Shown here piece after piece: positions 5,113 to 22,147 of a stretch of DNA of 64,000 nucleotides. The position numbers and the translations under genes are program-made. Under the pieces are notes generated by a model. It worked only from the letters and a program-made list of their open reading frames with translations, was not told where the DNA came from and ran no database searches. This DNA is from Actinomycetes bacterium (GTDB lineage Bacteria > Actinomycetota > Acidimicrobiia > Acidimicrobiales > RAAP-2), in the NCBI GenBank assembly GCA_021778895.1, contig JAJYBR010000003.1, positions 1-64,000 on the forward strand, in the 5' to 3' direction. The first letter of the stretch is position 1, and the number at the start of each line of letters is the position of its first letter.

Positions 5113-6008
5113 CCGGATCGTCCGGGCTCATCGGACGCTCGCTGGTCCGGGCGCTGTCCGCCCGCGGCGACCAGGTCGTCCGATTCGTGCGACCCGGCAC
5201 GACGGCCCCCGGCGGCGCCGTCGTGCGCTGGGATCCCGCCACGCGGGATGTCGACGAGAACGATCTGCGTCAGGCCGGGCCCCTCGACGCGATCGTCAAC
5301 TTGGCGGGGACGGGAATGGGCGACCGGCGCTGGACCGCGGCACGACGCGAGGCCATCGTTCGCTCGCGCCTCGCGGCCACCGGCCTCGTCGTCGAGATCA
5401 TCGAGCGTCTGCCCGGCGGGCTGACGGCGCTCGTCAACGCGTCAGCGGTCGGCTACTACGGTTCCCATCCCGCAGCAGCCGTCGACGAGACCAGCCCGAC
5501 CGGGACGGACTTCTTGGCCAGCGTGTGTCGCCAGTGGGAGGATGCCGCCAACCAGGCCCAGCGCTTCGGCACGCGCGTGGCCCTGTTGCGCTCCGGGGTG
5601 GTGCAGAGTGCCGCCGGCGGTGCGCTGGCGCGCCAGCTGCCGCTGTTCCGGCGCGGACTGGGGGGAACCCTCGGCTCAGGTCACCAGTGGGTCAGCCTCA
5701 TCTCGCTCACCGACGAGGTGCGCGCGATCGAGTGGATCCTCGACACCGATCAGGCGGGCCCGCACAACCTCGTGGCACCGACGGCTGCCACCAACGCAGA
5801 CCTGACGGCGAGCCTGGCCCACGCGCTCGGGCGGCGCGCCGCCCTGCGCGTCCCGGCCGTAGCACTCGACGTCGCCTTGGGTCGGGGCCTGTCGCGCCAG
5901 GCCGTTCTGGCCAGCCAACGCGCCCAGCCACGACGTCTGCTCGAAGAGGGATTCACCTTCCAGCACCCCGACGTGACAGCCATTGTGGCGGCAGCACTCG
6001 CTTCGTGA
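5097..6008 (+). CDS. TIGR01777-type NAD-dependent epimerase/dehydratase family protein
   Basis: GTG start inside the end of the hydrolase gene: VRVGVTGSSGLIGRSLVRAL...LVNASAVGYYGSHP...; ends FTFQHPDVTAIVAAAL. Confidence 0.85.
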   Translation: MRVGVTGSSGLIGRSLVRALSARGDQVVRFVRPGTTAPGGAVVRWDPATRDVDENDLRQAGPLDAIVNLAGTGMGDRRWTAARREAIVRSRLAATGLVVEIIERLPGGLTALVNASAVGYYGSHPAAAVDETSPTGTDFLASVCRQWEDAANQAQRFGTRVALLRSGVVQSAAGGALARQLPLFRRGLGGTLGSGHQWVSLISLTDEVRAIEWILDTDQAGPHNLVAPTAATNADLTASLAHALGRRAALRVPAVALDVALGRGLSRQAVLASQRAQPRRLLEEGFTFQHPDVTAIVAAALAS

Positions 6009-6186
6009 ATCCGTGCGCCGCTCCATCGCTATCCCCTGACCAGCGCTTCTTATATTGCAATTAGGTGAATTTCACCCTGGGATGAACTTGTGAGACACCT
6101 AACCGCCCGGTACAGTGACCCACAGTCCATCGTTGATGGGCTCCAACAGTTGAGGCCACTTCGGTGGCCCAGGGAGGCAAGTTGAT

Positions 6187-8004
6187 ATGCATCTAGGGCG
6201 CAAACTAAGGCTCGCGATGTCGGTTGGCGCAGTCGCCAGTTCGCTGTCGCTGGGTCTCATCGCTCCAGCCACGAGTGGAGCGAGCGCTCCCTCAGGGACC
6301 ATTACCTATGCGGAGGGTGCGGGGGCTAACCCGAACTACATCTTCCCGTATATGGGCTGTGCCTACTTCTCAGTGGACAACATCAACCAGTTCCAGGACT
6401 TGATGTTCCGGCCGCTGTACTGGTTCGGCCTCGGTGCCTCGAGCGCGTACGTTCCCAAGCTGTCCCTGGCTGCATCGCCAGCCTTCTCAAACGGGAACCG
6501 GACGATCACGCTCAACATGAAGGGATGGAAGTTCGCTGACGGTCAGGTCGTTAACGCCCGCTCGGTGATGTTCTTCCTCAACATGTACAAGGCCGACCCG
6601 ACCTCCTACTGTGGGTACAACGGTGGCTACGGCATCCCTGACCAGGTGAAGACCGCCTACGCCAAGGGCGCAAACTCCGTGGTGATCAACTTCACCACCT
6701 CGGTGAACCCAGGCTGGATCTTGTACAACTACCTGTCAGAGATCACTCCATTCCCGAACTCCTGGGACTACACGGCACCGGGTCACCACTCCAACTGCGC
6801 GGGTGGCAAGTACGGCGCGGCGTCGACCAACGCCCAGTGCAAGGCCGTCGAGACGTACCTCGACAACCTGTCGAGCAACACATCGACCTACACCAACAAG
6901 CTGTGGCAGAGCGGCGTTGATGGACCGTTCCGTCTGACGCACTTCGACAACCTCGGCAACGCGACCTTCGTGCCGAACCGGGCGTACTCGGGACCGCAGA
7001 AGGCGCAAGTTGCCCAGGTGAAGGAAGTGGCCTTCACGTCGACGCAGGCTGAGGAGAACGCCCTGCAGGCCGGCCAGATCGACCTCGGGTACGTTGACCC
7101 GTCGATCTTGACGGCACCGGCACCGGCACCCGGCAAGGTGGGCCCGAACTGGGGTCAGCTCTCTCAGCGCTACAACATGTACACGGGCTCGACGTGGGAC
7201 TTCAACTACGCGCCGTTCAACTTCAGTACCAAGGACCCGAAGCACGCGGCGATCGCCCAGCTCTACATCCGCCAGGCGCTCCAGACAGCCGTGGACCAGC
7301 TCGGGATCATCCAGAAGGTGGACAAGGGCTACGGCTTCCCGATCTACAGCCCGCTGCCCCCGAACACTCCTAGTTCGATCAGCGGCGCGGTGAAGAACCC
7401 CTACCCGTTCAACCTCACCGCGGCCAAGGCTCTGCTGACGAGCCACGGTTGGACTGAGCAGGGCGGCGTCATGACGTGCACCAGCCCCGGAACTGGCGCG
7501 AACCAGTGCGGCGCGGGAATCACGCAGGGCTACCAGCTCAAGTTCAGCATCATCTGGGCGAGCGGCACCCCGTCGCTGGACCAGACGTTCAGCGCGGAGA
7601 TCGCTGACTGGGCATCGATCGGTATCCAGTTCTCGCACTCCACTGCGACGTTCAACAACGTGATCGCGGCGTGCAACGGTGGCAGCGGCTACGAGATCTG
7701 CTCGTGGGGCGGCGGCTGGATCTACGCGCCGGACTACTACCCCTCTGGCGAGACGCTGTTCACGCCGACCGGTGGCTTCAATGTCGGCAGTTACAACGAC
7801 GCGCAGATGACGACGCTGATCAAGCAGACGACCTTCGGCCGGGCCAAGCTGACCGCGTACGCCCAGTACGCCGCGCAGCAGCTGCCGGTGCTCTACCAGC
7901 CCCAGGCGACTGGCGCCGGTGAGGTCATCAAGACGCTGAAGAGCACCATCGGGTTCACGCCGAACCCCCTGATGAACTTCATGCCGGAGTACTACCACTT
8001 CTAG
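6187..8004 (+). CDS. Family 5 (peptide/oligopeptide) ABC transporter substrate-binding protein
   Basis: Signal-peptide-like N-term; FQDLMFRPLYW..., LNMKGWKFADGQVVNARSVMFFLNMYK; followed by two permease genes. Confidence 0.92.
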   Translation: MHLGRKLRLAMSVGAVASSLSLGLIAPATSGASAPSGTITYAEGAGANPNYIFPYMGCAYFSVDNINQFQDLMFRPLYWFGLGASSAYVPKLSLAASPAFSNGNRTITLNMKGWKFADGQVVNARSVMFFLNMYKADPTSYCGYNGGYGIPDQVKTAYAKGANSVVINFTTSVNPGWILYNYLSEITPFPNSWDYTAPGHHSNCAGGKYGAASTNAQCKAVETYLDNLSSNTSTYTNKLWQSGVDGPFRLTHFDNLGNATFVPNRAYSGPQKAQVAQVKEVAFTSTQAEENALQAGQIDLGYVDPSILTAPAPAPGKVGPNWGQLSQRYNMYTGSTWDFNYAPFNFSTKDPKHAAIAQLYIRQALQTAVDQLGIIQKVDKGYGFPIYSPLPPNTPSSISGAVKNPYPFNLTAAKALLTSHGWTEQGGVMTCTSPGTGANQCGAGITQGYQLKFSIIWASGTPSLDQTFSAEIADWASIGIQFSHSTATFNNVIAACNGGSGYEICSWGGGWIYAPDYYPSGETLFTPTGGFNVGSYNDAQMTTLIKQTTFGRAKLTAYAQYAAQQLPVLYQPQATGAGEVIKTLKSTIGFTPNPLMNFMPEYYHF

Positions 8005-8026
8005 ACGTCACTATCCAGAAACGCTG

Positions 8027-8069
8027 GAGGGCAGAAGCGGGGCCCTCTTGGGGCCCCGCTTCTGCCCTC
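8027..8069. terminator. Strong hairpin between substrate-binding protein and permease genes (possible attenuator)
   Basis: Perfect 19-bp inverted repeat GAGGGCAGAAGCGGGGCCC / GGGCCCCGCTTCTGCCCTC with TCTTG loop; no long T-tract follows. Confidence 0.65.
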
Positions 8070-8123
8070 TGAGCACCCTCGTGGACCCAGTTCACCGAGG
8101 CAGCACTGCTAGGATGGCTTCCC

Positions 8124-9095
8124 GTGCTGGCTTACATCATCCGGCGGATCATTCAGTCGATCATCGTCGTTCTGATTGTCCTCTTCATCACGTTCTCTCT
8201 GCCCTACTTCCAGCCTCACGGAATCGTGGCACCCGCCTATGTGGTGTACGGGACCAAGGCCACACCGGCGAACATCGCCCTGTGGGCGCACCAGAATGGG
8301 ATGGACCAACCCTTCCTGGTGCGCTTCTGGCAGTACATCACGCAACTGCTGTTGCACTTCAATCTGGGTCACTCCTACAAGCAGAACATGTCGGTGTGGA
8401 CCATCATCAAGTTGTACGTGCCTCGCACGATCTGGCTTGCGCTGACCTCGCTGATCCTGGCTACCGCGATCGGACTGGTCGTGGGCATCGTCCAGGCATC
8501 GCGTCGCAATACGGTCTTCGACTACACCGCGACGGGGACCGTGTTCATCCTCTACTCGGTCCCGACGTTCCTGCTGAGCCTCCTCCTGATCGACCTGTTC
8601 GCCTTTCACTGGCCGCACCTGCCCGCGTCACCGCCGACTGGCGTCGCGCCCTGGGCGATGTTCACGGATCCCAAGGGGTTCGTCTTGCCTGTGGCCGCCC
8701 TGACGCTGCTGTCGGTGGCCGGCCTCAGCCGCTTCTTCCGAGGTGCCGTGCTGGAGGTCCTGGTCCAGGACTACATCCGCACCGCTCGCGCCAAGGGTTG
8801 CGGGAACTGGCGCGTGCTCTTCCGTCACGCCTTCCGCAACGCGCTCGGCCCGATCATCACGCTGCTCGGTCTCTACATCCCCGGACTGCTCGGCGGTGCC
8901 CTGATCATCGAGTCCGTCTTCAACTACGAGGGACTCGGCCTCCAGACGCTGAACGCCGCGCTGAACCTCGACATCCCGACCGTCTTGGGCATCACACTGC
9001 TCGCATCGTTGCTGACCGTGGCCGGCAACCTGCTCGCTGACGTGATGCTCGGTCTGGTCAATCCACGAATCCGCATCGAAGGGGGCGGCCGATGA
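8124..9095 (+). CDS. Peptide ABC transporter permease (DppB/OppB family)
   Basis: MLAYIIRRIIQSIIVVLIVLFITFSLPYFQPHG; DYIRTARAKGCGNWRVLFRHAFRNALGPIITLLG (EAA-type loop). Confidence 0.93.
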   Translation: MLAYIIRRIIQSIIVVLIVLFITFSLPYFQPHGIVAPAYVVYGTKATPANIALWAHQNGMDQPFLVRFWQYITQLLLHFNLGHSYKQNMSVWTIIKLYVPRTIWLALTSLILATAIGLVVGIVQASRRNTVFDYTATGTVFILYSVPTFLLSLLLIDLFAFHWPHLPASPPTGVAPWAMFTDPKGFVLPVAALTLLSVAGLSRFFRGAVLEVLVQDYIRTARAKGCGNWRVLFRHAFRNALGPIITLLGLYIPGLLGGALIIESVFNYEGLGLQTLNAALNLDIPTVLGITLLASLLTVAGNLLADVMLGLVNPRIRIEGGGR

Positions 9096-10012
9096 TCTCC
9101 GCGGAAGCCACCGCATTAACCACCACGACCGAGTCTCCGCAGACGTCCAGCGAGGTCGTCCCGATGTGGCGTCAGCGCTGGCGCATCTTCCGTCACAACA
9201 AGCTGGCGGTCATCTCGCTGGGCTACCTCATCGTCATCACCTTGGCGTGCTATTTGGTTCCGTGGCTCCATCCCACGAACCAGACGAATCAGGCCGCCAC
9301 GTTCAACGTGCCGTGGAACGCTCCCCCGTCTGCGGCCCATCTCCTCGGGACCGACAGCTCGGGCTTCGACGAGTTGGGTCGCATCTTCTATGGAGGCGAG
9401 TACTCGTTGACTCTGGGCTTCCTGGCGGGCTTCATCACCATCATCGTCGGCACCGTCTACGGCATGGTCTCGGGCTTCTTCGGCGGTATCGTCGACACGG
9501 TCCTGATGCGCATCGTGGATGCCGTGCTCTCGATCCCGTACCTGTTCTTGCTGATCGCGCTGATCTCGGTCTTCGGGCGCTCGACCATGTTCCTGATCCT
9601 CGTGATCGGATTGTCCGGATGGTTTGGCAACTCCCGTATCGTCCGAGGCGACGCGCTGCTCATCAAGAATCTCGAGTACTCGCAGGCGGCGACCGCCATG
9701 GGGGCGGGCAAGGCGCACATCATTCGCCGCCACGTCTTCCCCAACTCAATCAGCAACATCGTGACGGTCGCCACCTTCTCGGTGGCCGACGCGATCCTGT
9801 TCCTGTCAGCGTTGGGCTTCCTGGGTCTCGGCATCCAGACGCCACAGACCGACTGGGGAACGATGCTGCAGGCCGGCGCCTACCAGCTGCAGAACGGGTT
9901 CTGGTGGGAGGTCTACCCCCTCGCCATCGTCTTCATCCTCGTCGTCGTGTCCCTCAACTACATCGGTGACGCTCTGCGCGACGCATTCGAGGTTCGCCTC
10001 ATCGAGCGCTGA
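9092..10012 (+). CDS. Peptide ABC transporter permease (DppC/OppC family)
   Basis: MWRQRWRIFRHNKLAVISLGYL; HLLGTDSSGFDELGRIFYGGEYSLTLGF; 4-nt overlap with the upstream permease. Confidence 0.93.
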   Translation: MISAEATALTTTTESPQTSSEVVPMWRQRWRIFRHNKLAVISLGYLIVITLACYLVPWLHPTNQTNQAATFNVPWNAPPSAAHLLGTDSSGFDELGRIFYGGEYSLTLGFLAGFITIIVGTVYGMVSGFFGGIVDTVLMRIVDAVLSIPYLFLLIALISVFGRSTMFLILVIGLSGWFGNSRIVRGDALLIKNLEYSQAATAMGAGKAHIIRRHVFPNSISNIVTVATFSVADAILFLSALGFLGLGIQTPQTDWGTMLQAGAYQLQNGFWWEVYPLAIVFILVVVSLNYIGDALRDAFEVRLIER

Positions 10013-10013
10013 G

Positions 10014-10043
10014 CCACATGCCGACCGCCCGGTCGGCATGTGG
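10014..10043 (+). terminator. Hairpin at end of permease operon
   Basis: CCACATGCCGACC-GCCC-GGTCGGCATGTGG, 13-bp perfect stem starting just after the TGA at 10010-10012. Confidence 0.65.
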
Positions 10044-10322
10044 GGTGCGAACGGGGCCGCCAGCATGCTGGGTGGTGGGCAGGCGAGTGGGCAGCGGGCC
10101 CTGGAGATGGCGGCTGCATGACCGCGCTAGCGATCCGCCTCGGCCGACACGCATCGCGCTCTATCGCGCCCGTGACCCACCAGCTCGGGCGCGCCCGCTC
10201 GGTGGCCCCCCCGACGGCTACGCGATTCTTGCTACAGGGAGCATCCCCCTTTGTGCAGCCAACACTTGCCAGACCCCGGTGATTGCTCACGATCCGCCGA
10301 CGGGACAGGTCGTCTTCGAAAT

Positions 10323-10330
10323 CTAGCGAG
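10323..10330. repeat. Left 8-bp target-site duplication CTAGCGAG
   Basis: CTAGCGAG immediately precedes the left IS end TGGGGGTATCCATTT. Confidence 0.9.
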
Positions 10331-11454
10331 TGGGGGTATCCATTTCCGGACAGTAAAGTCCTGACGTTGAGGTAGCCTCGTTGGGGTGATGCCACCCCCG
10401 TGGCCCACCTCCACTACCCAACGGACCTGGCCGAGTTCGTGGCGTGGTTCTCCACTGACGAGGGCTGCCGCGACCACCTTCACTGGCTGCGCTGGCCCGA
10501 CGGCTTTCTCTGTCCCGAGTGCGGTGGTCCGGGGTGGCTGCCCAGGAATGGGCGCTACGAGTGCGCCGCGTGTGGCCTTCGCACGAGCCTCATCGCCGGA
10601 ACGATCTTCGAACGTACTCGTCTGCCACTCACTCTCTGGTTCCACGGTGCCTGGCTCTTCGCCACCAACAAAGACGGCGTATCGGCCAGCGCCCTCCAAC
10701 GCCAGCTCAACCTCCACAGCTACCAGACCGCCTGGACGATGCTCTCGAAGTTCCGCGTGGCGACCGCGGCCACGGACCGCGCTCTGCTCTCGGGTGATGT
10801 TGAGGTGGATGAGACCCTCTTCGGCGGGCTCACCCAGGGCCTGCGTGGTCGCGCTCCGGGAGCAAAGATCCTGATAGGGATAGCCGTTGAGCGTGTGCCG
10901 GGCGGTGGCTTTGGGCGGTGTCGGATGGTCGTGCTGGACAGCGCGAGCGGCGCGAACCTGCGGGCCTTTATCAAGGCCAACGTCGAGCCTGGCTCGACCA
11001 TCTACACCGACGGCTGGGGCCCCTACGTGACCGCGCTGCGCGGGTGCCCCTACCAGCACGTCTCCACGGTCGCCCCGGGTGCTCAGGCGGCGTAGGCCCT
11101 GCCTGGAGTCCATCGGATCGCCTCGCTCTTCAACCGCTGGGTGCTGGGCACGCACCAGGGCAGCGTCGGCTGGGACCACGTTGCGCTCTACCTCGACAAG
11201 TTCGTCTTCCGGTTTAACCGCCGGCGCAGTCGGCATCGCGGGCTGGTCTTCCTACGCCTGATGGAGCTCTCCGTCAGGCACTCTGCGGTCTATTACAAGG
11301 ACCTCACGCCCAACGTCGGGCGCACCAAGGGTCAGGCGCGCACACCTCCGCCCGCTGTCGGGAGGGGCCGCAGTGCCAGCGTCGAGAGGCCTCGCGCGGA
11401 CCGCCCGTGGCGTGGCCCCTGACGAGGACTGCTCCTGTTAAATGGATACCCCCA
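10331..11454 (+). mobile_element. IS1595-family (ISXO2-like transposase) insertion sequence, 1124 bp
   Basis: Terminal inverted repeats TGGGGGTATCCATTT (left) and AAATGGATACCCCCA (right), flanked by identical CTAGCGAG; contains a Zn-ribbon transposase ORF. Confidence 0.92.
10400..11422 (+). pseudogene. IS1595-family transposase interrupted by in-frame TAG at 11093-11095
   Basis: N-part 10400-11095 (CPECGGPGWLPRNGRYECAACG zinc ribbon; DVEVDETLFGG; TIYTDGWGPY). The same frame continues after TAG: ALPGVHRIASLFNRWVLGTHQGSVGWDHVALYLDKFVFRFNRR to TGA at 11420-11422. Confidence 0.88.
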
Positions 11455-11462
11455 CTAGCGAG
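11455..11462. repeat. Right 8-bp target-site duplication CTAGCGAG
   Basis: Follows the right IS end ...GGATACCCCCA directly. Confidence 0.9.
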
Positions 11463-11952
11463 ATCCGGAGTCGAATTCGAGAAAGCCAAGCTTTCGGTAC
11501 AAGTGGACGGCTGGGTTTGTCCGAGTGACAACCAACCTCAGTTCGCGAAACCCCTGTTCCTTGAGCAGTTCGGCACTCTGGGAAATCAGTTGATTCCCGA
11601 TGCCGCGTCGCTGCCATTCCGGCAGGGTAAAAGTAAACGCCAGCAAGGGAAACTGTTGCCAAGTCGTCACCAGACTTGACGAGATTGGTGTGGTGCCAAC
11701 CTCCGCTACCAGACTCGCCGCCCAGTTGAATTCTCCATGCTTGCCGTCCAGAGTTCCCTCAAGTTCCCCTATGGCGTCGAGCTCAGTCTCGCCCTCGTCA
11801 TCGGCAGTTCCTCGGTATGCCTGGTGCATCACCCGGCCAAGCGCCGGCAGGTCATCGCGGACTATAGCTCGAACAAGAATGGAGGATGCGGGAGCAGTCA
11901 ACGGATGTACGCCCTCCAAGTTGAGCCGCATCGAGACTGCGTCACGTTCCAT
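11455..11952 (-). CDS. GNAT family N-acetyltransferase
   Basis: LVRAIVRDDLPALGRVMHQAYRG..., LPEWQRRGIGNQLISQSAELLKEQGFRELRLVVTRTNPAVHLYRKLGF. Confidence 0.85.
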   Translation of the reverse strand: MERDAVSMRLNLEGVHPLTAPASSILVRAIVRDDLPALGRVMHQAYRGTADDEGETELDAIGELEGTLDGKHGEFNWAASLVAEVGTTPISSSLVTTWQQFPLLAFTFTLPEWQRRGIGNQLISQSAELLKEQGFRELRLVVTRTNPAVHLYRKLGFLEFDSGSR

Positions 11953-12101
11953 TCATCCCCTTCCGCTGGATAGCAGGGAACTCTAACTCGGCCACTTCAA
12001 TGGGTCCGGCCGTCTCTTGAAGAGGTCCGTTTGTCTGCCTGCACTGACCTTGCCCTGAACCGAGCCCGACACACTCATCTTTCTGTCGCGTGGCAAGTTC
12101 G

Positions 12102-12440
12102 TCACATCTGCATTTCAGCTGCACGACGCCAGGGCTTCGGTCGCACTGTGCTGTCAAGGGCGTTGGCGTGGACATCATCGATGTCGGGTGGCGTAGTGGG
12201 CTTGGACTCCGGCACCGAACGCCTAAGCACGTTGGCCCGAGTCACGAGTGGTGCCGCGACGGACTGCTCGGTCAATCGGGAGAGGAGCATTCCGCGTTTC
12301 CTCGAGTTTCGGTAGTCGAACCGGAAGCAGAACTCTTCACGGTAGGCCCGCGGATGCACCGGTTGAACAGAGCCCTGGTAAGTGCCGAGCATCCACCGCG
12401 TGGTTAGTCTGGCCACGCGATGCACCCCAGGCCGGTCCAC
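12102..12440 (-). pseudogene. Remnant of an IS1595-family transposase C-terminus
   Basis: PGVHRVARLTTRWMLGTYQGSVQPVHPRAYREEFCFRFDYRNSRKRGMLLSRLTEQSV resembles the intact-IS segment PGVHRIASLFNRWVLGTHQGSVGWDHVALYLDKFVFRFNRRRSRHRGLVFLRLMELSV; no N-terminal half seen. Confidence 0.8.
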
Positions 12441-12546
12441 GTGCGCCTGGTTGCCTGATACGGAGACGTTGAAGCCTGGGTCGTGTTTACCGGTCGTGAG
12501 TGCCAGTTGGCGGATCTCCTGCCCAAGACCGATACTTCCTCCATTG

Positions 12547-13110
12547 CTATTGCGCCAACTCGCCCGGCAACAAGCTCCACATGAGGCAGTCGCGACGCTC
12601 TCGGGAGTGTTGGTGCAACTCGTACGCGCGCAGGAGTCCCTCGTTCTGAAACCCGCACCGCTGAGCGACGCGCTGTGAGGCGGTGTTCCGTGGATCAGTC
12701 GTCAACTCGATCCGGCCAATCGGGAGTGTCGCAAACAGCCACGAGCACAGCAGGCGGACGCCGGTCGTCATGTAGCCGTGACCCTGGGCTTCGGGGACGA
12801 GCCAGTACCCGATGCTGGCCGACAACCTCCGTCCATCGATGCGGGCCCCCAGCGAGCCCAGCACAGAGTCGACGTGTACGTTGGCGATCGCCAACGCCAG
12901 GCTCGTCCCGGCCAGCCGGTCGGGCTCGTGCGTGGCCAGCCAGGCTCGGGCGTCGTCGTCCCCGTAGGGGCTGGGCAGGTTCACCAGGAACCTCACGACG
13001 GTGGGGTCAGAGCACGCCTGGACGATGGCCGGCACGTCGGTCGCGCGCCAGGGGCGCAGCAGCACGTCTCCGCGCTGCAAGGCCGGCTCGGGGAACGGCA
13101 GTCCCGCCAC
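12547..13110 (-). CDS. GNAT family N-acetyltransferase (RimJ/RimL-like)
   Basis: LLRPWRATDVPAIVQACSDPTVVRFL..., IGYWLVPEAQGHGYMTTGVRLLCSWLF...IELTTDPRNTASQRVAQRCGFQNEGLLR. Confidence 0.88.
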   Translation of the reverse strand: MAGLPFPEPALQRGDVLLRPWRATDVPAIVQACSDPTVVRFLVNLPSPYGDDDARAWLATHEPDRLAGTSLALAIANVHVDSVLGSLGARIDGRRLSASIGYWLVPEAQGHGYMTTGVRLLCSWLFATLPIGRIELTTDPRNTASQRVAQRCGFQNEGLLRAYELHQHSRERRDCLMWSLLPGELAQ

Positions 13111-16068: not shown

Positions 16069-16641
16069 GTGTCCCCTCGCGACATGACCCGAGATCTGAT
16101 GCGCCACGCCATGGTCGTTCCGCTCAAAGACTTCACCGAGGCCAAGAGCCGGCTGCGCCACGGGGGCCAGCCCGATGTCGAGGCGCTGGTACAGGACCTC
16201 GCGGCCTCCGTCATCGCGAGTTGCGCGCCCCACCCCACATTCGTGCTCACCGAGAGCGATGACGTCGACGCTTTCGCGCGGCGCCGCGGGTGGGCGGTCC
16301 TGCGATCCCCCCACGGTGGCCTCAACGCGGCGTCGCAGTGGGCGTTCGGCCAACTGCAAGACGTCTTCGCACGCGTCACCTTCGTGCACGGGGACATCCA
16401 GCACCCGGCAGGAATCGCCGACCTGCCGATCACCGCAGACGTGATGATCGTGCCCGACCACCACGGAGTGGGAACGACCATCCTCTCCTTGCCAACCCAC
16501 CGGGACTTTCACATCCGCTTCGGGCCAGAGTCGGCGCGCGCTCATGTGCGTGAGGCCGCGGTCCAGGGACTGTCCTGGGAACTTCTCACCCCGTCGCCGT
16601 GGTCGCACGACGTCGACGTGCCGTCGGATCTTCAGCCATAA
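16069..16641 (+). CDS. cofC: 2-phospho-L-lactate/phosphoenolpyruvate guanylyltransferase-like (F420 biosynthesis)
   Basis: MVVPLKDFTEAKSRL...FVHGDIQHPAGIADLPITADVMIVPDHHGVGTTILSLP. Confidence 0.82.
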   Translation: MSPRDMTRDLMRHAMVVPLKDFTEAKSRLRHGGQPDVEALVQDLAASVIASCAPHPTFVLTESDDVDAFARRRGWAVLRSPHGGLNAASQWAFGQLQDVFARVTFVHGDIQHPAGIADLPITADVMIVPDHHGVGTTILSLPTHRDFHIRFGPESARAHVREAAVQGLSWELLTPSPWSHDVDVPSDLQP

Positions 16642-16709: not shown

Positions 16710-17045
16710 CTACTTGGCTGCAGCCTTCTTGGCCGGAGCCTTCCTGGCCGGAGCCTTCCTCGCGACGGCCTTCTTGGCGACGGCCTTCTTCGCCGGAGCC
16801 TTCTTAGCGACGGCCTTCTTGGCCGGTGCCTTCCTCGCGACGGCCTTCTTGGCCGGAGCCTTCTTGGCAACCGCCTTCTTCGCCGGTGCCTTCTTCGCGA
16901 CCGCCTTCTTCGCCGGAGCCTTCTTAGCGACGGCCTTCTTGGCCGGTGCCTTCTTGGCGACCGCCTTCTTGGCCGGTGCCTTCTTGGCTACGGCCTTCTT
17001 GGCCGGAGCCTTGGCTGCCGGAGCCTTCTTCGCGGCTGTTGCCAC
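16710..17045 (-). CDS. Lys/Ala/Pro repeat protein resembling a histone H1 C-terminal tail
   Basis: AAGGAGG ribosome-binding site followed by GTG at 17045: [32 protein letters not shown]...; the whole 111-aa protein is basic repeat. ORF-track start at 17072 has no such RBS. Confidence 0.8.
16720..17030. repeat. Degenerate about 30-bp tandem repeats encoding [10 protein letters not shown] units
   Basis: Repeated TTCTTxGCGACGGCCTTCTTGGCCGGTGCC units on the plus strand. Confidence 0.85.
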
Positions 17046-17277
17046 TTTCCCTCCTTGGGACATATCACTCAATCAATCCGGAACCTCGAGACAGCCCCGA
17101 TCGGATCCGCACCGATACCCAGACACTCGTCCGACTCGCTCGACCATCCAGTCGTGCTCCCCGGCGCAGTGCCTGGTCCCTCTCCGAGGGACGAACTCCG
17201 ACCTCGTCATCGACGACGATGTGGACTCCGTCTTCTTCCTCTTTGGAAGGACACTAAAAGTTCACTCGACATGATGA

Positions 17278-18636
17278 GTGATGTCAAGCATTTCGAATCG
17301 TCGACCGTTGCGATGCGTGCGCGACGACGACGGCGTCTACCTCGGACGCTCGTCCGTCGGTGATGTGACGAGTGGGTCGGAGCGATCGACACTGGTGCTC
17401 GGTCCCTCGCGCAGCGGCAAGACGTCGTCCATCATCGTGCCGAACCTGCTCCTCACGATGCGTGCTGCGGTGACGACGTCGACCAAGGACGACGTCTTGC
17501 GCACCATCGCCGAACGACGCACCGATGGGGCCACACTCGTCTTCGATCCCTCGGGCATGGTGGCGTTGCCGCGCGGCGCGCAGCGCGTCGGCTACTCGCC
17601 CCTGCGCCAGGCGCAATCGTGGGATGGTGCGGTGCTGGCGACGCGCACGCTCACCGACGTCGCACGCCGGCCGCGAGGCGATGGTGCCGACGACCACTGG
17701 ACCGAGCGCGCCGGCGCGCTGGTCGCGCCACTGCTCCACGCCGCGTCGCTCGAGGGTGCCTCTCTCGGCCAGGTGGCGGCCCAGCTCGACCGCCGCGATC
17801 CCCAGCGCGCGGTAGCGGTGCTCAACGAGCGCTACGGCACCGAGCACCCCTCGACCGCGCTCCTGAGTGGCGTCCTCCAGACCGATGCGCGCGAACTGTC
17901 GGGCATCTGGTCGACGGCGTCCGGCCTGTTCGCGGGCCTGCGCACGGAGGCGGCTCGATCGGCGTCCCGCGATCCGGCCCTTGACCTGGACGAATTCCTG
18001 CGCGGACCCAACCAGCTGCACATCGTCTCGCCCAGCCGGGTCCAGGCCGTCTCCACCCCCCTGGTCGTCGGAGCGCTCGACGAGATCGTCCACGCCACCT
18101 ACCAGCGGCACCACCAGGGGGCCCGGCTGCTCCTCGCCCTCGACGAACTGGCCAACGTCGCTCCCCTGCCGCGACTCGCCAGCATCGTGTCCGAAGGGGG
18201 TGGGCAGGGCGTGGTGACCGTCGCCTGTCTCCAGGACCTGAGCCAGGCGCGCACGCGCTGGGGTGCGGCCGCGGCGGGATTCCTGTCGCTCTTCCCGACG
18301 ACGGTGGTGCTGCCGGGCATCGCGGACCGCGACACCCTCGAATTGATCAGCCGCCTGTCGGGGCACGTGCACCTGCCGAGCCGATCGCGGCACGCCGGGC
18401 GCGGGCGCACGTCGACGGTCTCGACGGCGTGGGTGGAGCGCGAGCGACTCGGCGTCGCCGAGGTGGCGACGGGCCGGCCGGGGTTCGCCCTCGGTCTGCG
18501 CGCTGACAAGTCGCTCGGATGGATCCGCCTGACGCCAGCTCACACAGACGCGCGCTGGCGCTCCGTCGAGCCGCCACGCACGGCGGGCTACCGCACTCGT
18601 GAGAACTCGTCGCGCCCGATGTCGCGCGAGCGCTGA
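17278..18636 (+). CDS. VirD4/TraG-like type IV coupling ATPase without N-terminal transmembrane region
   Basis: Walker A LGPSRSGKTSSIIVPNLLL, Walker B ARLLLALDELANVAPLPRLASIVSEGGGQGVVTVACLQDLSQARTRWG; no hydrophobic N-terminus. Start (GTG 17278 or ATG 17281) uncertain. Confidence 0.85.
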   Translation: MMSSISNRRPLRCVRDDDGVYLGRSSVGDVTSGSERSTLVLGPSRSGKTSSIIVPNLLLTMRAAVTTSTKDDVLRTIAERRTDGATLVFDPSGMVALPRGAQRVGYSPLRQAQSWDGAVLATRTLTDVARRPRGDGADDHWTERAGALVAPLLHAASLEGASLGQVAAQLDRRDPQRAVAVLNERYGTEHPSTALLSGVLQTDARELSGIWSTASGLFAGLRTEAARSASRDPALDLDEFLRGPNQLHIVSPSRVQAVSTPLVVGALDEIVHATYQRHHQGARLLLALDELANVAPLPRLASIVSEGGGQGVVTVACLQDLSQARTRWGAAAAGFLSLFPTTVVLPGIADRDTLELISRLSGHVHLPSRSRHAGRGRTSTVSTAWVERERLGVAEVATGRPGFALGLRADKSLGWIRLTPAHTDARWRSVEPPRTAGYRTRENSSRPMSRER

Positions 18637-19625
18637 GGAGCTCGCAGCCGCACCGGACCTTCGCGGACCGGCGCGCGCGCCTCATCGACCGTGAACTGGT
18701 AGCGACTGAGGCCACGCTCGAAGCGCCGCCCCGGGTGCTGGCGATCGATCACGCGGTCGACCACTCCGGGCGCAGCGCCGTAGGGGGACGCGTCGGCCCA
18801 CGCGCGGACCAGGTCCGCTCGGTGGATCGTCACGGCCCCCTCGAAGGCAGCCGCATAGGCGTGCGCGTCCACGCCGGTCGCGCTCGGCGGCTCGAGGGAG
18901 CCGATCGGCCACAGGCGGTCCCTCTCCTCGCGCCACCGCTCCATCGCCGCCTCTCGCGACCAGTGCAGCTTGGGGGCACGCCGGTCGTCGTGTCCCGGCC
19001 ATAGGGCGCGGTAGCCCTCATCGACTCCTGCGACGTGCTCGTTCCCGCCGCGTGCCCACACGCGCCAGGAGGTCGTGGCGCTGATCTCGAAGCGCAGGGC
19101 CGCGCGGTACAGGGCATCGGCCGCGGGGAGGTGGACGCGCAGCGCCCGACCGTCCAGGACTCCGGTGTGGTGCGCCGGACGGGCTCCGACGAGCACGTGA
19201 TCGTGCAGGTGCGGCTCGCCCGCGCGGCTGATCCCGTGGGTGAATCCCACGACGTGCTCCCAGGTCGCGGCCGCCCCGAAGCGCTCCCCGTCGCGGGTGA
19301 CGGGAACCACCAATGCCCGGCGCTCGAGATAGTCCAACGCCCCACCGACCGCGAGGCGCTGGGCCGCCACGAGCGCGCCCGACGACTCCGGGTCCACCGC
19401 GAGCAGGATGGAGACCGCCCGGGGTGCCGCGAACACCATGTCGTACCCCGTCACCGAGGATCTCGGCGACGTGCGCAGCACCGCGGCCACGTCGCGCTCG
19501 GACGTCGCGTCGCCTCCGCCGCGCCACCACCACCCCGCCGCGTCCCGGTGGCCTGCGAGCTCATCGGCTCGATCATTCACGAGGTAGGAGACGTCCTGGC
19601 TCTTGCGCACCAGCAGTCGGATCAC
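18588..19625 (-). CDS. Stand-alone MobF/TrwC-type relaxase (HUH endonuclease) domain protein
   Basis: GTG at 19625 preceded by GGAGG; SSVTGYDMVFAAPRAVSILL...FTHGISRAGEPHLHDHVLVGARPAHHTGVLDGRALRVHLPAADALYRAALRFEI; no helicase domain follows. Confidence 0.83.
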   Translation of the reverse strand: MIRLLVRKSQDVSYLVNDRADELAGHRDAAGWWWRGGGDATSERDVAAVLRTSPRSSVTGYDMVFAAPRAVSILLAVDPESSGALVAAQRLAVGGALDYLERRALVVPVTRDGERFGAAATWEHVVGFTHGISRAGEPHLHDHVLVGARPAHHTGVLDGRALRVHLPAADALYRAALRFEISATTSWRVWARGGNEHVAGVDEGYRALWPGHDDRRAPKLHWSREAAMERWREERDRLWPIGSLEPPSATGVDAHAYAAAFEGAVTIHRADLVRAWADASPYGAAPGVVDRVIDRQHPGRRFERGLSRYQFTVDEARAPVREGPVRLRAPQRSRDIGRDEFSRVR

Positions 19626-19656
19626 GGGTCCCTCCGGGACCCAACGGTCGGCGCCC

Positions 19657-21591
19657 TCAGAGGCTGGCGAGCATGCGTGCGGCCACGGCGTGACCCGCCT
19701 CGCGGAAGCGGGGCGTGACCACCACCGCGCCGGCTCCGGCCTCGACCATGAGCTGGTCGAGGAACCCCTCGTTGGCCACCCGCAGGCGCACCAGATGCCG
19801 GCCATCACCGAGTGCGTGCCACTGCGCACGTGGCAGGGACTCGAACAGCCAGCGCGACGATGCCTGCACCAGGACGAGGACGTCCTCGCCGACCTCGCCG
19901 ACCTGGGTGAGCCAGTTGGTCACGGTGTCGGGCGGCCGCGCCTCGTCGGCGGCCGAGCTGGCCAGGACCGCGATGATGCGATCGATCCGGAACGTGCGCC
20001 AATCGAGATTCGTGAGGCAGTAGGCCCGGGTGTACGCGTGGCCGTTGAGGAAGCGCACCTCCCGCGGCTCGATCGTGCGATCGGTGGTCTCGCCGGTGGT
20101 GCCCGAGACGTAGCGGATCTTCATGCGCTGGTGCGCCTGTGCGGCCTCCTGCACCTGCACCTCGACCTCGTCGACGACGACCTCGTCCATCTGCACCCAG
20201 TTCTGGGCCAGGCCCTCGATCTTGTCGATCACCGCGCGCACGACGGGATCGTCGTGGATCGCCAGCGCCTCGCGCAGCGCGATGTTGATCTCGAAGAGGT
20301 CCCGCCACGTGAGAGCCGGCAGCGCCGCCGTCCCCGTGACGACCACCTCGGGCACGTAGAGGGCATCCTCGGTATCCTCGTGCTCCCAGTCGTCGCACTC
20401 CTTGATCACGTGGGCGGGAAACCCGTAGTCCCCGTGGAGGGGCTCGAAGGTCACCAGGCGATCCATGATGTGGCGCACGACGTCCTCGGCCATCCCCGAG
20501 CGCTGGGCGAGGGAGCTGAGCCGCACGCCCTCGGGCTCGAGATGCACCATGTGCAAGAGCCGCAGCGCCTGACCCAGCGTGCTGTCGGTGCTCGGCGCCT
20601 CGAAGACGACCTCCCCCACTTCGGGGACGGGACCCGCGTTGACGCCCTCCAGCCAGTCGCGCAGCGCCCGCCGCAGGACCTTGGGCCCCCGGACGCGAAC
20701 GCGATCGCCGGCCCGCAGGGCGAAGCGCAGCGCCGCCCGCAGGCTCTCGAACGTCAGTGCCACGTCGACCTCGCCCGACGGTCGTGCGTGGAGGTCGGCA
20801 TGGGTGAACTGGCGCGCGATCAGGTGCGCGTAGTTCTCACTGGTCGCGAGCTGGGCACGCACGGGCGACAGAGTCGCGCCGAACTCCGGGCGCCAGGCCC
20901 GTGCCACCGAGGCCAGGTCCTCGTCGACCTCGAAGGTCTCGTCACTGACGTGGGGCATCGACGTCATGCGCGTGAGGCGGTAGCCCTTGACCTCGCTGGA
21001 TCCCCGCACCCGGGCGACGAGGTACACCACACCGTGGAAGAGCCCGATCACCAGCGGCTCGACGACGCGGGCCCGGTTGGCCGAGGAGTGGTAGTCGAAG
21101 CGGACGACGCGGTGGAGCCGTACCGCCCGCAGGATGGGGGTGAGGTACGTCGTGTCCTCGAGCCCGCTGTCGGCTCCCGGACCCTCGTTGAAGAGGCTGA
21201 ACGCCCCCGAGGCGCCGAACCCGTAGAGGCGCAGCGCCAGCTGGATGACTCGGCGCTCGTCGTCGTCCCAGTGCAGGACCGGCGCCATCACGCTGTCGGC
21301 ATCGATCCAGTAGCCCACACCACCCTCGGGCAAGGCGATCGTCTCGATCTGCCAGCCCAACTCGCGGATGCGGACCTTGTCGCGCTCGAACTTCTGGCGC
21401 ACGGCCACCGGCGAGCCCTCGTAGGCGCGAACCTTGCGCGGCGAGCGGCCCCGCTGGGGATATTCGTCGATGAGCAACTCGTTGACGATGGTGTCCTGCG
21501 AGAGAGGATGCTCCCGCGATGCGCTCTGCAAGAGCAGGGTCAGCGCCACCAGGCGCTCGCGGCTCTCCTCGACGCTGCTGCGAACGCTCAT
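19657..21591 (-). CDS. pafBC: Fused PafB-PafC-like WYL-domain transcriptional regulator
   Basis: 644 aa with two HTH/WYL halves: KFERDKVRIRELGWQIET... and LGQALRLLHMVHLEPEGVRLSSLAQRSGMAEDVVRHIMDRLVTFEPLHGDYG. Confidence 0.8.
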   Translation of the reverse strand: MSVRSSVEESRERLVALTLLLQSASREHPLSQDTIVNELLIDEYPQRGRSPRKVRAYEGSPVAVRQKFERDKVRIRELGWQIETIALPEGGVGYWIDADSVMAPVLHWDDDERRVIQLALRLYGFGASGAFSLFNEGPGADSGLEDTTYLTPILRAVRLHRVVRFDYHSSANRARVVEPLVIGLFHGVVYLVARVRGSSEVKGYRLTRMTSMPHVSDETFEVDEDLASVARAWRPEFGATLSPVRAQLATSENYAHLIARQFTHADLHARPSGEVDVALTFESLRAALRFALRAGDRVRVRGPKVLRRALRDWLEGVNAGPVPEVGEVVFEAPSTDSTLGQALRLLHMVHLEPEGVRLSSLAQRSGMAEDVVRHIMDRLVTFEPLHGDYGFPAHVIKECDDWEHEDTEDALYVPEVVVTGTAALPALTWRDLFEINIALREALAIHDDPVVRAVIDKIEGLAQNWVQMDEVVVDEVEVQVQEAAQAHQRMKIRYVSGTTGETTDRTIEPREVRFLNGHAYTRAYCLTNLDWRTFRIDRIIAVLASSAADEARPPDTVTNWLTQVGEVGEDVLVLVQASSRWLFESLPRAQWHALGDGRHLVRLRVANEGFLDQLMVEAGAGAVVVTPRFREAGHAVAARMLASL

Positions 21592-21652: not shown

Positions 21653-22147
21653 TCACGTCGCGTCGGCGCCGCCGTCGCGGCGCCACAGTCCCGAGCGTCC
21701 CCCCGACTTCTCCCACAGTGCGATGTCGTGGATCGTCATGGTGCGGTCGATCGACTTGCACATGTCGTAGATCGTGAGCGCGGCGACCGAGACGGCCACC
21801 AGTGCCTCCATCTCCACGCCCGTCCGGTCCACCGCGTCGACACTGGCCTCCACGGCGATGTCCGTGTCTCCGATCGTGAAGTTCACGTAGACGTTGCCCA
21901 CGAGCACCGGGTGCGCCATCGGCAGCAGGTCCGCCGCACGCTTGGCGGCCTGGATCCCCGCCACGCGGGCCGTCGCCAGGACGTCCCCCTTACCAACCGC
22001 ATTGGTCGCCACGGCCGCCGTCGTCGTCGGCTGCATGCTCACGCGCCCGCGAGCCAGCGCTCGCCGGACCGTCGCGTCGCCGGGGCTCAGATCGCGGGGC
22101 AGCGAGCCCTCCCGGGCAATCCGGCGCGGCGGTGAGAATTCGTCCAC
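21653..22147 (-). CDS. moaC: Cyclic pyranopterin monophosphate synthase
   Basis: KGDVLATARVAGIQAAKRAADLLPMAHPV...VDRTGVEMEALVAVSVAALTIYDMCKSID. Confidence 0.95.
   Translation of the reverse strand: MDEFSPPRRIAREGSLPRDLSPGDATVRRALARGRVSMQPTTTAAVATNAVGKGDVLATARVAGIQAAKRAADLLPMAHPVLVGNVYVNFTIGDTDIAVEASVDAVDRTGVEMEALVAVSVAALTIYDMCKSIDRTMTIHDIALWEKSGGRSGLWRRDGGADAT

Follow-up and report, generated by a model that had tools for sequence, protein, structure and literature searches.

Among archaea, the domesticated Ced machinery moves chromosomal DNA after damage, by means of CedA, with six to seven transmembrane (TM) segments, CedA1 and CedA2, with two each, and the VirB4/HerA-like CedB (PMC9905601). 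In Neisseria gonorrhoeae, a gonococcal genomic island (GGI) carries a chromosomal, relaxase-bearing type IV secretion system (T4SS) able to release chromosomal single-stranded DNA (ssDNA; PMC12857230). Here we analyze a locus at positions 16710-21591 of a 64,000-nucleotide stretch of DNA, the window (contig JAJYBR010000003.1 of assembly GCA_021778895.1, positions 1 to 64,000), from an Actinomycetes bacterium of the Acidimicrobiales lineage RAAP-2, in which genes for a stand-alone relaxase and a coupling-type ATPase converge between those for a WYL-domain regulator and a histone H1-like protein. An initial annotation, made from the letters alone, took this locus for a domesticated, stand-alone DNA-processing module encoded by the chromosome, possibly under damage-responsive control, rather than an ordinary mobile element. 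Domestication is strongly supported by family-wide distribution, fixed synteny, distances that track those of serS, and purifying selection; the stand-alone character is probably wrong, because a vertically inherited T4SS-like cassette co-occurs elsewhere on the chromosome.

With moderate confidence we favor the reading that this locus supplies the relaxosome half of a two-locus, domesticated conjugation machine that would pass chromosomal ssDNA to neighboring cells. The relaxase would nick chromosomal DNA and remain bound to its 5' end, and the soluble VirD4-like ATPase would carry this complex to a small channel in the membrane, whose genes occupy a second fixed site on the chromosome. The channel, comprising a two-TM DUF6112 protein, a six-TM SCO6881-type protein, an SCO6880-type VirB3/VirB4 N-terminal part, a VirB4 ATPase and a second VirD4, would move single-stranded chromosomal DNA into neighboring cells for recombination or repair. 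That the two loci form one machine, that DNA is its substrate, that this DNA leaves the cell and that damage induces the machine are steps we infer. The broader proposition, in which conjugation has been turned into a vertically inherited cell function and a relaxase, a coupling ATPase, a minimal T4SS and an ssDNA-sensing PafBC link would serve Ced-like exchange of chromosomal DNA among kin, is tentative and falls somewhat short of an even prospect.

Like archaeal Ced and Ted (PMC9905601), the proposed system would be conjugation machinery domesticated on the chromosome, with a suggested link to damage, and the parts lists correspond: a two-TM pilin-like protein, a six- to seven-TM channel and a VirB4/HerA-like ATPase resemble the DUF6112, SCO6881-type and VirB4 proteins, all three of which are inherited vertically at a fixed chromosomal site with serS-tracking distances. 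Unlike Ced, the present system is bacterial, and its conserved relaxase and pair of VirD4-type ATPases fall outside the set of four Ced proteins; moreover, Ced imports DNA, whereas the machine proposed here would be a donor. As in the GGI T4SS, which moves chromosomal ssDNA (PMC12857230), relaxase, coupling protein and T4SS are all chromosomal, but the GGI is a genomic island with an F-like system, while the present cassette is minimal and monoderm-type, has its relaxase at a separate locus, and is conserved in at least six families. If the favored reading is true, programmed exchange of chromosomal DNA in bacteria would be testable in cultured species (Acidimicrobium ferrooxidans), and software that scores relaxases or VirD4 genes as evidence of mobile elements would be affected.

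The locus comprises the following features (window coordinates):

16710..17045, minus strand: histone H1/HC2-like Lys-Ala-Pro repeat protein, 111 residues from GTG (PF07382), divergent from the ATPase gene
17046..17280, no strand: intergenic region between the H1-like and ATPase genes, unusually conserved; possibly a two-way promoter and/or an oriT-like candidate
17278..18636, plus strand: soluble VirD4/TraG-type coupling ATPase, 452 residues (451 from ATG 17281; PF02534 and PF12696)
18588..19625, minus strand: stand-alone MOBF (TrwC/TraI)-type HUH relaxase domain, 345 residues (PF08751), with a GTG start behind GGAGG
19657..21591, minus strand: fused PafB-PafC-like WYL transcription regulator, 644 residues, with two WYL domains and WCX

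The order, strands and domains first assigned to the four genes are confirmed. The convergent 49-nt overlap of the ATPase and relaxase genes (18588-18636) also holds, and is identical in a close relative (L060), as does the 31-nt gap between the WYL gene and the relaxase gene on the same strand.

Profile searches retrieved the relaxase from 165 of 172 genomes of the host family and the ATPase from 170; each is present in 100 of the 101 good genomes and in all 21 genera, and the pair is single-copy in most. Most of these genomes look fragmented; two relatives have public names, and both were assembled from metagenomes. In 54 neighborhoods read, most loci keep one order: pafBC and relaxase on one strand, the ATPase gene facing them, and, on the other side of the pair, the H1-like gene divergent from the ATPase gene and then cofC on the ATPase strand. 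The same order recurs in a second family (f40, locus L157), and the adjacency of the relaxase gene behind pafBC also in an Acidimicrobiaceae genome (L121). The ATPase gene faces the relaxase gene in 53 of 53 measurable family neighborhoods, with ends touching or nearly so and overlapping in 30. Compared with two close relatives, both genes are under purifying selection (ratio of non-synonymous to synonymous divergence, dN/dS, 0.16-0.17 for the relaxase and 0.09-0.10 for the ATPase), with synonymous divergence of the same order as in flanking genes. The carriers are soil and acid-water actinobacteria, a clade of Acidimicrobiales, that hold the pair as permanent chromosomal genes and not on a plasmid; by these comparisons the pair is a core, vertically inherited unit and not a local remnant. 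The conservation that the initial annotation proposed to look for thus extends across genera and into a second family, far beyond a single strain. The sporadic distribution of an integrative element was not seen (no separate search for att repeats was made), given the core distribution and fixed housekeeping flanks. That a single integrated conjugative or mobilizable element is decaying here and has left this locus as a remnant is accordingly close to refuted: its parts are homologous to MOBF and VirD4 genes of actinobacterial plasmids and a helicase domain is missing, as such a remnant would have it, but the locus is single and family-wide, keeps a fixed synteny with housekeeping genes, is under purifying selection and follows serS in its distances, all of which contradict it.

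The only domain matched by the relaxase protein is TrwC (PF08751, E 4e-21), and the relaxase profile matches TrwC (1omh, E 5.5e-53) and also TraI. Among 32 relaxases with identity down to 22%, Y14, H130, R134, H139, H141 and H143 are invariant; these include the N-terminal catalytic tyrosine, Tyr14, and the HUH metal triad of a TrwC-type domain (H130, H141 and H143, as H...HxH). Where a YY pair is usual, most members of the host's own genus have another residue in place of the second tyrosine (YL or YF), whereas other genera retain it. The protein therefore shares the HUH domain, catalytic tyrosine and metal histidines of the MOBF (TrwC/TraI) relaxases of actinobacterial plasmids and integrative and conjugative elements; it differs from them in lacking the helicase domain, in being core and chromosomal, and in scoring below the NCBIfam MobF cut-off (68 versus 100 bits). 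Its nearest plasmid-borne relatives, and those of the ATPase, are only 33-38% identical, and neither protein matched a phage family in PHROGs. The host genome has one TrwC gene. Three other genomes (G143, a single 5-Mb contig, G351 and G030) each contain 9 to 14 MOBF relaxase matches, which suggests many integrated elements in them.

The ATPase contains T4SS-DNA_transf (PF02534, E 2e-20) and TraG-D_C (PF12696, E 6e-17), and its profile matches TrwB. Its Walker A (GPSRSGKT) and Walker B (LLALDE) motifs agree with residues invariant in 30 ATPases (GPxRSGKT and LDE). Like the VirD4/TraG coupling proteins TrwB and Cag5, it combines both Walker motifs with a TraM-recognition domain; unlike them, it has no N-terminal membrane helices and is paired with a relaxase outside the channel operon. 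Its start, first placed at 17278, is probably ATG 17281, since ATGTCAAGCATTTCG is conserved. A PADLOC mad8 match (E 3e-4) looks like a generic match to the HerA/VirD4 fold and was set aside.

The initial annotation had noted that no other conjugation genes lie nearby. This stands for the neighborhood, where no T4SS genes were found beside the pair, and fails for the genome: the T4SS-like cassette escaped notice because it sits elsewhere. A search of the host's own genome (G000) with the ATPase profile uncovered a paralogue on another contig, within a cassette at C5:269110-273839 (equivalent to L165:6111-10840), outside the window, that encodes:

C5 cassette: DUF6112 protein, 93 residues, two hydrophobic segments; VirB2/CedA1-like
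C5 cassette: six-TM protein, 369 residues, about six hydrophobic segments; relatives match SCO6881; VirB6/CedA-like
C5 cassette: VirB4 protein, 733 residues, C-terminal half a VirB4-like ATPase; the separate N-terminal part in relatives matches SCO6880 (VirB3/VirB4 N-part)
C5 cassette: second VirD4-like ATPase, without an N-terminal anchor

A search with PF03135 (VirB4) had retrieved none of the 172 family genomes; the result was misleading because VirB4 here is AAA_10-like and was reached through the VirD4 paralogue. The cassette VirB4 occurs in 158 of the 172 family genomes and in 93 of the 101 good ones. In nearly all family genomes read, the cassette is flanked on one side by senX3-regX3 and serS and on the other by a ROK gene. 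Outside the family, senX3-regX3 lies beside it in f3, f5, f40, f49 and f50. Across the loci compared, senX3-regX3 was its neighbor at seven of eight in a first set and at most of another 20, which came from several families; these flanks are missing within the stretch read at L170 and L185. In the open-access literature we found nothing on this locus or on DUF6112. In small genomes of another lineage (G009, with locus L191, and G080, G147, family f18), VirB4 and VirD4 occur with no relaxase match, together with a DUF6112-like gene in L191; these may represent another chromosomal T4SS.

The association between the two loci was assessed in a class sample of 246 genomes, where an ATPase orthologue was defined by a score of at least 340 bits against profile A1 (a threshold set by us; the next lower score was 301). 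Orthologues occur in 29 of the 246, from seven families, and the relaxase profile, too, finds a match in all 11 carriers outside the host's own family (f1), next to the ATPase gene in f40 and away from it in others. VirB4 is present in all 29 carriers and in 19 of the 217 other genomes (Fisher p 3e-25, or 3e-11 excluding the host's family, both values overstated because relatives are not independent). Twelve of those 19 have relaxase matches, often more than one to a genome and nearly all in long open frames (about 670-1640 residues) of the size that relaxase-helicases of mobile elements typically have; the remaining seven have none. When pairwise distances are compared, relaxase, ATPase and VirB4 correlate among themselves (r 0.75-0.80) and each with serS (r 0.63-0.72; control, senX3 with serS, 0.64). 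In G284 (L189) and G123 (L190), no cassette VirD4 was found in the interval from VirB4 to the ROK gene. The one VirD4 type detected in these genomes is the ATPase of the relaxase locus, as if that ATPase can serve the channel. Acidimicrobium ferrooxidans, whose genome is a single replicon of 2,158,157 bp (PMC3035218), bears the relaxase gene, the ATPase gene and the cassette, each at a different site on the chromosome (G014).

Several observations weigh against a two-locus machine. The co-occurrence of ATPase and VirB4 is confounded by phylogeny. Hydropathy analysis found no N-terminal hydrophobic segment or TM anchor in the ATPase, and the relaxase ends after its relaxase domain, with no Walker A motif of a C-terminal MOBF helicase in those family members that were checked; the longer proteins of f40 and A. 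ferrooxidans likewise show no recognizable helicase. Among the cassette genes we recognized no VirB1 or VirB8 homologue. As an origin of transfer (oriT), a single conserved intergenic region, 17046-17280, is the only candidate. AlphaFold models of relaxase and ATPase had a mean predicted local distance difference test (pLDDT) of 34, because the input was three sequences, and were not used. Finally, eight good family genomes are without VirB4. G173 (four contigs) has a real deletion of the cassette with relaxase and ATPase retained, and VirB4 is probably missing from G188; in five others a contig stops at the cassette or within it, and G283 is unclear. At the deleted site in G173 (L205:9200-11700), the DUF6112 gene is truncated and the cassette is replaced by unrelated ORFs, by eye cytochrome P450-like and toxin-antitoxin-like.

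Some of these points suit an intracellular DNA-processing pair, in which the relaxase would nick or rejoin chromosomal ssDNA and the ATPase would act as a soluble translocase (HerA-NurA- or FtsK-like) in repair or replication, separately from the cassette: the ATPase has no anchor, the pair survives in G173 although the cassette is lost, the pafBC and H1-like neighbors are retained, and almost all family genomes have the pair, a slightly higher share than have VirB4. We nevertheless judge this unlikely, as VirB4 co-occurs perfectly with the ATPase outside the family too (11 of 11), five of the eight gaps in VirB4 coincide with contig ends, and relaxase and ATPase are both members of conjugation families. 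Somewhat less likely still is a cassette that exports proteins or builds an adhesive fiber, with relaxase and ATPase kept as a regulator or assembly motor after DNA transfer was lost. Effector and adhesion systems do occur among domesticated T4SSs, such as the essential T4SS of epibiotic Patescibacteria (PMC12857230), and the MOBF helicase domain is indeed gone; the catalytic tyrosine and HUH triad, however, are invariant down to about 27% identity within the family, which a role without nicking would not need.

For the two-locus machine, the regulator offers a possible route of induction. In all 54 family loci read, the relaxase gene is preceded on its own strand by a pafC-type WYL gene, at a distance below 150 nt in 51. 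Like mycobacterial PafBC, the window protein has two WYL domains, in an apparently PafBC-type arrangement, fused here and separate or fused in relatives; unlike it, it forms an operon-like unit with a relaxase. The window protein matches WYL twice and WCX, with no HTH_PafC match; PF19187 is matched in the Acidimicrobiaceae relative (L121). In mycobacteria, ssDNA activates PafBC (PMC11804915), which makes the conservation of the pafBC-relaxase operon suggestive, and by this analogy co-transcription may tie the machine to ssDNA or DNA damage. A PafBC promoter scan gave 37 matches at up to three mismatches versus 24 expected, none convincing at the module, where no mycobacterial-type (RecA-NDp-type) motif with two or fewer mismatches was found; this consensus is mycobacterial and may not be acidimicrobial.

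The H1-like repeat protein (HC2, PF07382, E 5e-15) is encoded at the matching position in most family loci and in the second family. Its start, originally placed at TTG 17072 (120 residues), is most likely GTG 17045, which is conserved together with an upstream AAGGAGG in about 20 species. The 235 nt that separate it from the ATPase gene (17046-17280) are 95-96% identical to those of two relatives (L060 and L061), compared with 74-91% for other intergenic regions and 83-92% for the coding sequences of ATPase, relaxase, WYL and DXS, and are the most conserved of all segments compared, coding or non-coding. Blocks common to about 20 species include GAACTCG, CGCAGTGCACGG and AAAAGTTCACTCG. This conservation points to a candidate shared, two-way promoter and/or an oriT-like region with a nic site. 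An Rfam scan of the region containing it gave no match, and RNA folding indicated no clear structured RNA (z-scores between -1.1 and -2.4, with a single stretch of the four under -2). The contigs of several relatives (L078, L085, L087, L092 and L098) end inside or just past the H1-like gene, probably because its repeats break assembly.

Two flanking genes of the synteny table lie outside the proposed machine:

16069..16641, plus strand: cofC-type gene, a conserved flank
21653..22147, minus strand: moaC, a flank conserved in the host's own genus and several others

Elsewhere in the window, G+C content falls to 0.62-0.65 at about 6000-13000, versus about 0.70 in the rest.

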